This document shows positions 435 through 5,142 of a DNA stretch of 45,526 nt, piece after piece (positions within the stretch are counted from its first letter, which is position 1; every line of letters starts with the position of its first letter). The DNA lies in the NCBI GenBank assembly GCA_023249635.1, contig JAHFCH010000024.1:1-45526 (forward strand). The letters are read 5' to 3'. The translations under genes were made by a program, and so were the position numbers. Source of the stretch: Fibrobacterota bacterium. GTDB taxonomy: Bacteria > Fibrobacterota > Fibrobacteria > UBA11236. Below the pieces are notes generated by a model. It ran no database searches and had not been told where the DNA came from. It worked only from the letters and a program-made list of their open reading frames with translations.

Positions 435-754
435 GGCGCGGGGGTGGGAGCGGGGATGCGGGTGGGGCTCAGACAAGGCTCGGCGATGAGCTGGGTCGGC
501 CCGGCCCGCGAACGCTGCGACGCCCGCGTATAACTCTTCGCATTCTGTCCTCCCAGACGCGGACTACCGATGCTGAGGGTTGGCTGGCATCGTTCGCAGT
601 CCGTCCCCCTTGGATTGTCAGCGCTAACGCGCTGACGACTTCCAATGGCGCTTACGCGCCCGGGCGGGCCAGGTATGACCTGGACCGCCCCCGTGCGCAG
701 GGCGCCCGGATTTTAAGCTCACCCCACTCGCACCCCCGCTCTCGCCCCCGCGCC
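435..754. repeat. Imperfect 33-bp inverted repeat enclosing several hairpins
   Basis: The G-rich arm at 435-467 is complementary to the C-rich arm at 722-754 at 29 of 33 positions without gaps. The 254-base interior holds an imperfect stem at 561-603 with core CGATGC/GCATCG, a perfect 8-bp stem at 617-636 (GTCAGCGC, loop TAAC, GCGCTGAC), a 5-bp stem at 647-660 with a TTAC loop, and a 12-bp stem at 662-690 with one mismatch. This could be a structured RNA, a non-autonomous mobile element or an extended 3' region of pfp. No target-site duplication or transposase is visible. Confidence 0.6.
440..467 (+). other. Potential G-quadruplex motif
   Basis: Five G-runs of three to five G occur with loops T, AGC, ATGC and T. 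This satisfies the usual G3+ N1-7 pattern. The motif coincides with the left arm of the 435-754 inverted repeat and starts 26 bases after the pfp stop codon, so a quadruplex and the long stem would be mutually exclusive. Confidence 0.5.
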
Positions 755-4015: not shown

Positions 4016-5142
4016 AGGTTTTGAAAGGTGCGCGCGGGGCCTGAGGTCCCGCCGTTATCCACCAGCGCTTTTCCGGATTGAATCCGGAGACGACGGCCCG
4101 CTTCCTGCGGGCCGTTTTCTTTTCCCCCGCCCCTCACTGCGGTGACACCGTCCCAACGCAAGTTGGGTCCCGCTCCGTTCGCCGCATCGCCAACGCGCGC
4201 CTTCACCTGGGCCGCAGGAAGTAAGGCCAGGGAATACGGAGGCGTGAATGCCGTGCCCGACCCCGCGCTATCGCCCGTCGCCTTCTCGTAGAAATTGTCC
4301 TGCAGGGTCACCGCCTTGGAATTCTTCTCGAACAGGTCGATGGGATTCTGGACGCCGATGAAGGCGCTGGCCTGCACGCGGATGTCCGCTTCCAAACCCG
4401 CGCGCACGCAATAGTTCGCCTCCGCGCTGGTGAACAGGCAGTTGGCCAGATGCACCTGCCCGAAGCGCACCCGCGGCATACGTTCCACCACCCCATCGCC
4501 CCACCAATCCGCCAGGAAGGTGATGCGCAGCTTGCCGCGATCGCCGGTTTTGGAATCGCTGGACCCGATCAGATTGCAAAAGGCGTGGTTGCCGCCTTTG
4601 GCGTAGGTCATGCGGGTCCAGGAAACCGTTACCAGATCGGCTTGGTTGGTGATATCCAGATTGCCGTCGAGGCCGTCGTGGATCCACATATGATCGATCC
4701 ATACGCGGGAAACGTTTTGCACGGTCACCGCGTCCACGCCGTTCACGTCGTTGGAACCCGGGCCTTCGATCTCGAAATTGCGGATGACCACATTGGAAAA
4801 CGGTTTGGCCGATGGGGCGGTGAGGTCGATTCCGCCTATCAGGCGCGCGCCCGGGAGGCCGAGCAGGCTTTTGTCCCCGGTGGGCATGTCCACCCTACCG
4901 GTGATGGTGCCCTTGATCCACACCACCCGCTTGCCGTCGGTTTTCAAAGCGGCGTTGAGATCAGCGAGATTGTCCACCGTGGTCTCGGGACCGCCGGCGC
5001 CGCCGGGCGCGCCGCCTTGCAGCGAAGCCCAACCCACGGGAAGATCATGGACGGATGCGGTATGACCGCGCGGCGCGGTCGAAGCAACGAGGACGAAAAC
5101 GGAATAGCGGAGCCATCGCGATGCGATCCGAGCTTGGATCAT
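3964..5142 (-). CDS. Secreted pectate lyase, PL1-like
   Basis: The 392-residue product has a signal peptide of about 29 residues (hydrophobic LRYSVFVLVA, likely cleavage after HTA). A right-handed beta-helix domain carries PL1 hallmarks: VWIDH at 147-151, DGLDGNLDIT at 156-165 in the Ca-binding area, and RMPRVRFGQVH at 221-231 with the candidate catalytic Arg at 224 or 226. It would cleave pectate by beta-elimination outside the cell. The recognisable lyase fold ends near RWDG at residue 332. The last 60 residues are encoded across the terminator of the convergent lipoprotein gene and into its coding end, so this tail may be a recent extension caused by loss of the original stop. No type IX-like C-terminal domain is seen. 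A G-rich stretch precedes the ATG. Confidence 0.85.
   Translation of the reverse strand: MIQARIASRWLRYSVFVLVASTAPRGHTASVHDLPVGWASLQGGAPGGAGGPETTVDNLADLNAALKTDGKRVVWIKGTITGRVDMPTGDKSLLGLPGARLIGGIDLTAPSAKPFSNVVIRNFEIEGPGSNDVNGVDAVTVQNVSRVWIDHMWIHDGLDGNLDITNQADLVTVSWTRMTYAKGGNHAFCNLIGSSDSKTGDRGKLRITFLADWWGDGVVERMPRVRFGQVHLANCLFTSAEANYCVRAGLEADIRVQASAFIGVQNPIDLFEKNSKAVTLQDNFYEKATGDSAGSGTAFTPPYSLALLPAAQVKARVGDAANGAGPNLRWDGVTAVRGGGKENGPQEAGRRLRIQSGKALVDNGGTSGPARTFQNLQGRYLRVVPASHLNSK
4072..4088 (+). other. Short hairpin just before the terminator
   Basis: TCCGGAT pairs with ATCCGGA around a three-base TGA loop. It lies about 55 bases after the lipoprotein stop and directly before the intrinsic terminator, so the mRNA probably ends in a double hairpin. 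Confidence 0.5.
4093..4123 (+). terminator. Intrinsic terminator of the 3011-4015 lipoprotein gene
   Basis: A perfect 9-bp stem ACGGCCCGC/GCGGGCCGT with loop TTCCT runs straight into a T-rich tract (TTTTCTTTT). Orientation is plus only, because the opposite strand lacks a U-tract. The same bases are read as coding sequence of the antisense pectate lyase. Confidence 0.9.

Follow-up and report, generated by a model that had tools for sequence, protein, structure and literature searches.

The large inverted repeat that follows pfp in the window, by which we mean the whole 45,526-nucleotide stretch of DNA analysed here, is best explained as one single, long-form copy of a hairpin family specific to its genus. 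On balance, we consider this family to be probably a non-autonomous, mobile-like, palindromic and non-coding interspersed DNA element that has a layout like that of REP/BIME repeats without being a member of them. The window is contig C210 of a 6.75-Mb genome (G000), whose nearest named relatives as judged by NrdR are the Fibrobacteres/Fibrobacteria MAGs RYN_349, RYN_348, 336R_metabinner_36 and Chersky_265. The genes that we take to be nrdR, guaB and guaA were named from their sequence and from recall, and the name pfp was adopted from an initial annotation of this DNA.

That annotation had described two 33-nucleotide arms at 435 to 467 and 722 to 754, and the repeat was found exactly as located, with 254 nucleotides between the arms and 29 of 33 positions (88%) complementary. 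Dinucleotide-preserving shuffles of positions 415 to 1243 were used as a control, and the best 33-nucleotide inverted repeat reached only 18 to 23 pairs in all 300 trials, compared with the 29 observed. The RNA fold of 428 to 762 had an energy of -203.6 kcal/mol (z -7.7), a value that none of 100 shuffles reached, and the minus strand of the same segment gave a z of -6.8. The element lies between the pfp stop codon (412 to 414) and nrdR (1244 to 1702), and there is no called gene in the intervening positions 415 to 1243.

All of the parts of the window copy are given here on the plus strand. The two arms form the outer stem, P1, which was recovered by both the repeat search and the fold and which covaries across 62 copies. 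Inside its 5' arm, positions 468 to 480 carry a conserved motif, CTCAGA, and the 5' strand of P2, CAAGG, both found in a search with the family pattern CTCAGACRAGGCT. A junction strand (TCGGCGATGA...) follows at 481 to 507, as seen in alignments A1 and A2. The inner hairpin at 508 to 597, supported by the fold and by a third alignment, A3, consists of P3 (508-518/587-597) and P4 (522-529/557-564, with one mismatch); the corresponding helices 3 and 4 of A3 are paired in 94.6% and 97.9% of cells. In the alignments, positions 608 to 616 supply the 3' strands of P2 (CCTTG) and of the mismatched motif (GATT). P2 (474-478/608-612) and P3 are among further interior stems that the initial annotation had not listed. 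The four that it had listed were present in both the sequence and the fold, at 617-624/629-636 (a perfect 8 bp), 647-651/656-660, 662-674/678-690 (12 bp with one mismatch) and 691-698/702-709. Together they make up a four-hairpin insert at 617 to 709, which interrupts the motif on its 3' side and is confined, on sequence and folds, to the long form of the element, that is, to the window and two other G000 copies, on contigs C241 and C292. In a blastn search with positions 400 to 1000 as the query, the insert of the window matched that of C241 at 84%.

The blastn search with the window region also gave weak matches elsewhere in G000 and in a congener, and these loci had the same layout, another stem sequence and a common motif beside the 5' arm. 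The pattern CTCAGACRAGGCT, with at most one mismatch allowed, matched eight times in G000, where seven of the matches were recognised as family members from sequence and fold; the reversed pattern, used as a control, had no match in G000 or elsewhere in this genus and one in G012. Among 16 pattern matches, L093, L094, L095, L100 and L102, the last being the eighth match in G000, were judged to be coding from their sequence, and L090 in G001 was without the 3' motif; these were excluded from later counts. Seven short-form cores were aligned, and RNAalifold reported double-sided change in 31 of 49 pairs. A covariance model built from these cores (R1) was searched over 31 genomes and matched 45 times in G004, 19 in G000, 7 in G002, 5 in G005, once in G003 and never in G001. 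A lone weak R1 match in G009 (E 0.088) had no counterpart at E 0.01 with a second model, R2, of 180 positions. R2 identified 20 copies in G000 and 48 in G004, all with E values below 1e-10 except for one match truncated by a contig end (E 3e-6), and, with 16 candidates scored per genome, 8 copies in G002, 6 in G005 and 2 in G003. Across 167 genomes of the phylum, R2 matched in only five, all of this genus; no copy was found in G001, which belongs to the same genus, or in the other 161 genomes. Dispersed homologous hairpins with strong covariation therefore exist in relatives, which supports the earlier suggestion of an old or constrained structure.

Searches outside the phylum gave no further members. 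A plasmid collection yielded no match, and five exact pattern matches in viral contigs were attributed to chance because none of them matched R2. At permissive thresholds, Rfam recognised no family in ten loci, the best scores being 17.5 and 27 bits against gathering scores of 48 and 150. In the parts of the literature accessible to us on palindromic repeats and structured RNAs of Fibrobacter(es), on REPIN/RAYT systems, on BIMEs and on template switching, no description of the family appears, which does not establish that it is unpublished. We could not match it to any described family and place it among the interspersed palindromic repeats. It was also observed that many copies are located close to a contig end, no more than a few hundred bases away (C134, C45, C108, C241 and C210 in G000, C26 and C59 in G004, and C77 in G002). 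Long palindromes seem to break the assembly, and the real copy numbers may be higher.

What the copies have in common is an architecture rather than a sequence: each is a dispersed hairpin of roughly 150 to 400 bases, in which the outer stem is long and nearly perfect and is followed by a conserved motif with mismatches and by three inner helices, arranged from the outside inwards as P1, motif, P2, junction strand, P3 and P4. P1 mostly comprises 25 to 57 near-perfect base pairs, and its sequence varies widely between copies. The 5' side of the motif falls into the classes CUCAGA, CUCGGA and GCGAA, opposed on the 3' side by A(A)UUC, AACUC or AAUGC. P4 is GCCCGCG/CGCGGGC, and its apical sequences are common to many copies in which P1 and P3 differ.

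For the analyses of position, 63 copies were used (20 of 20 from G000, 35 of 48 from G004, 4 of 8 from G002, 3 of 6 from G005 and 1 of 2 from G003), with genes called by a custom hexamer-scored ORF caller rather than a standard annotator. None of the 63 overlapped a called gene. All 16 close neighbouring pairs were in +/- orientation, with their members facing each other. In 55 of the 56 copies that had both neighbours called, including 25 of 26 single copies, the nearer gene was the one at the element's 5' side. After a stop codon, 25 copies lie in sense, with a median of 40 nt to the model start, and 37 adjoin a gene start and point away from it, at a median of 133 nt. In the eight convergent spacers there is one copy each, whose orientation is in sense to one of the two genes. 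The idea that the elements belong only to 3' UTRs was rejected, because 37 of the 62 classified copies are beside gene starts. The polarity towards the 5'-side gene is the strongest feature of the family that has no explanation. A shared motif, ACTCT(A/C)AA, was noted in the space that separates the element from its neighbouring gene, for the most part where the copy adjoins a gene start. It lies beyond the 5' side of the model match, by 52 to 94 nt at L136, L137, L138, L139, L140, L141 and L164 and by 114 nt at L146, and its surroundings are similar in some G000 copies (87.5% over 56 nt between L136 and L138).

Flanking genes showed that certain slots are common to different species. Pairs occupy common slots at L136/L158, L137/L149/L174 and L138/L166, and single copies do so, in the same relative orientation, at L141/L162/L170/L175 and L145/L153. 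At several of these slots, the outer flanks align at 75-94%, and the hairpins are mostly without convincing alignment; the exceptions are L170 and L175, which are mutual best matches, and L149, where the right-hand copy matched its counterpart at L174 best. Four-fold sites of the neighbouring genes are 52-65% identical, compared with the 36-47% expected at saturation. Within genomes, 31 of 33 G004 copies and 17 of 20 G000 copies with a match had their best relative in the same genome, which points to spread or conversion within the genome. At the three pair slots, the whole pair was present in 7 of 19 genome-slots, and the other 12 had no model match. The slot between guaB and guaA holds a pair in G000 and G004 and none in G002, G003, G005 or G006, the empty spacers measuring 485 bp in G002, 204 in G003 and 98 in G005. 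The L137 slot is occupied in G000, G004 and G005 and empty in G001 (397 bp), G002 (400) and G003 (439), while the L136 slot is occupied in G000 and G004 and empty in G001 (442), G002 (676), G003 (237), G005 (357) and G006. The slots common to two or three species could also hold a functional element that was inherited vertically, instead of reflecting turnover.

At the pfp-nrdR slot itself, a copy was found only in G000: R2 found nothing there in four congeners (L005 to L008) or at L010 to L013. The family adjoins many unrelated genes. These two findings do not support the proposal that the repeat is a pfp 3' regulatory element, and it can be explained without any particular role at pfp or nrdR. 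In G004, a conserved TTTTCAACA block is located 14 nt after the pfp stop codon, and by eye the extra DNA of the window relative to G004 extends approximately from 415 to 1020. Positions 1184 to 1228, just upstream of nrdR, are 84-93% identical in four congeners and are probably the nrdR promoter region. Like spacers in G002 and G003 were observed to carry a different hairpin repeat, built on CGTCGGGCG / CGCCCGACG, at L217 and L218 (after a 497-aa gene) and at L011 (pfp-nrdR); it seems that a given slot is filled by one repeat family in one species and by another elsewhere.

The placement of the copies bears on the hypothesis that they are outward-facing transcription insulators, which as RNA would stop or shield transcription leaving a gene, the polymerase meeting each copy in sense either past a stop codon or antisense from a promoter. 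The polarity of the copies, their distances from stop codons and gene starts, and the single sense copy in each convergent spacer all favour this arrangement. However, in each of the three genomes with an occupied L137 slot a good intrinsic terminator already precedes the copy, the end of the window element has no U-tract, G.T is not preferred over A.C in the stems, and orthologous slots are empty in congeners, as in the 98-bp spacer of G005. We therefore regard insulation as unlikely to be what the family is for.

The covariation was examined in alignment A3, which contains 62 copies, the one truncated by a contig end having been omitted. Double-sided changes occurred in 39 of 41 pairs, and 93.4% of 2,517 cells were paired, compared with 65.4% after shuffling and 31-49% when the pairing was slid. 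Because A3 had been fitted to the model, its pair counts are biased in favour of the structure, which the slid controls offset in part. Among the same cells, 2,309 were Watson-Crick, 42 were G.T, 46 were A.C and 120 were other combinations. Helices in RNA normally tolerate G.U and not A.C, and this preference was lacking here. A separate count of the outer stems gave 2,149 Watson-Crick, 72 G.T and 53 A.C (p 0.11), superseding, together with the other strict count, a first and looser one (207 G.T, 128 A.C) that ran far past the stems. G.T exceeded A.C in P2 alone (14 vs 4, p 0.03) and fell below it in P4 alone (0 vs 6, p 0.03). When 15 tRNAs were treated similarly, 14 G.T and no A.C were counted, although this control is biased, with its stems picked by ARAGORN. 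Equal numbers of G.T and A.C imply either that both strands are equivalent for the conserved feature or that DNA synthesis restores the match between the arms, and the pairing thus looks to be kept at the DNA level and not as an ordinary RNA. The initial suggestion of a new structured RNA is improbable, the equal counts speaking against RNA folding as the conserved feature. The same equality would also be expected with an RNA function if DNA template switching homogenised the arms.

Symmetric and almost purely Watson-Crick stems, as well as inverted pairs at the boundaries of transcription units, would suit topological or protein-binding sites in the form of cruciforms, a role that has been suggested for BIMEs together with gyrase. 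Yet symmetry gives no reason for a polarity of 55 in 56, and neither G001 nor the other genera have the elements, which makes this reading improbable. It is also improbable that the copies encode a new structured noncoding RNA that acts in trans, for strong covariation, a conserved unpaired motif and the fold of the window (z -7.7) are opposed by the G.T and A.C counts, by a placement that follows gene boundaries and by the lack of any Rfam score near gathering in the ten loci.

The mobile-like reading remains to be compared with known systems. In the parts of the sources accessible to us, REPs are palindromes of 20-40 bp (PMC3733652) and BIMEs have alternating orientations (PMC2817692). Like REP, BIME and REPIN sequences so described, the present elements are dispersed, extragenic and palindromic and occur as inverted pairs, with the alternating orientation of BIMEs in 16 of 16. 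They differ in their size of about 150 to 400 bases, with outer stems of up to 57 bp instead of 20-40 bp. Their structure is conserved and their sequence is not, and no PF01797 (RAYT/Y1 transposase) protein was found in the five element-bearing genomes (G000, G002, G003, G004 and G005); among the 10 genomes searched, only G001 and G010 had one. The family thus fails membership of the REPs on both the RAYT and the short palindrome, and only its layout is BIME-like. Integron attC sites are recognised by their folded single-strand shape and have variable arms, a likeness to the present hairpins. However, integron-type integrases that exceeded the TIGR02249 cut-off were found in G001, G002, G003, G005 and G010 and in neither of the most copy-rich genomes, G000 and G004, the elements flank ordinary chromosomal genes, and no attC core sites were noticed by eye. 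A search for a reverse transcriptase, which a retron, group II or DGR RNA would require, found none in G004, with its 48 copies, and one in G000, on C143. Because the genomes are incomplete (G000 95%, G004 96%), the absence of an enzyme is no proof.

Of the three options in the initial annotation, the miniature mobile element comes closest, since the family is dispersed, restricted to the genus and present or absent at slots as whole pairs. As in MITEs, the units are non-coding with inverted ends. Unlike in ordinary MITEs, each end is a complex hairpin, and the interiors of the pairs have no detectable similarity (no match among 16). At the one slot where occupied and empty sites were aligned, the boundaries were too diverged for a target-site duplication to be defined. 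The dissimilar interiors, and the fact that no mobilising enzyme was found, count against the mobile-like reading.

Under the mobile-like explanation that we favour, the unit is often an inverted pair of facing hairpins situated between a gene end or terminator and the promoter of the next gene, and single copies may be the remnants of pairs. Copies would spread and be replaced within the genome by some enzyme or by gene conversion. The stems might be kept complementary at the DNA level, for example by template switching during replication, by conversion of one arm to match the other, by selection that acts on a cruciform or on folded single-stranded DNA, or by several of these, and the sequence would then drift while the pairing stayed Watson-Crick. 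Template switching is described, in the parts of PMC8794818 accessible to us, as creating and repairing stems through multibase compensatory changes that keep them perfect; that work concerns RNA genes, whereas ours is a dispersed element family in which G.T is as rare as A.C. More tentatively, the family may represent a new class of mobile or recombining bacterial DNA whose identity resides in a large folded shape and not in its sequence, with long, facing hairpins that are oriented by gene boundaries and occupy conserved terminator-promoter slots as whole pairs and with arms rewritten in concert by template switching or a hairpin-handling enzyme. More than 80 hairpins form a natural set in which stems change fast and stay almost purely Watson-Crick, so that the survival and matching of long palindromes in bacterial chromosomes become testable. 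The family also warns that strong covariation alone is no proof of an RNA, and it offers a repeat that seemingly spreads without the known REP transposase.

Finally, a GGGTGGTCTRGRCT...CCTTCGGGGGTGGGT unit that resembles the outer end of some elements was seen by eye as short direct repeats between the two copies at L136, at about 4600 to 4760.
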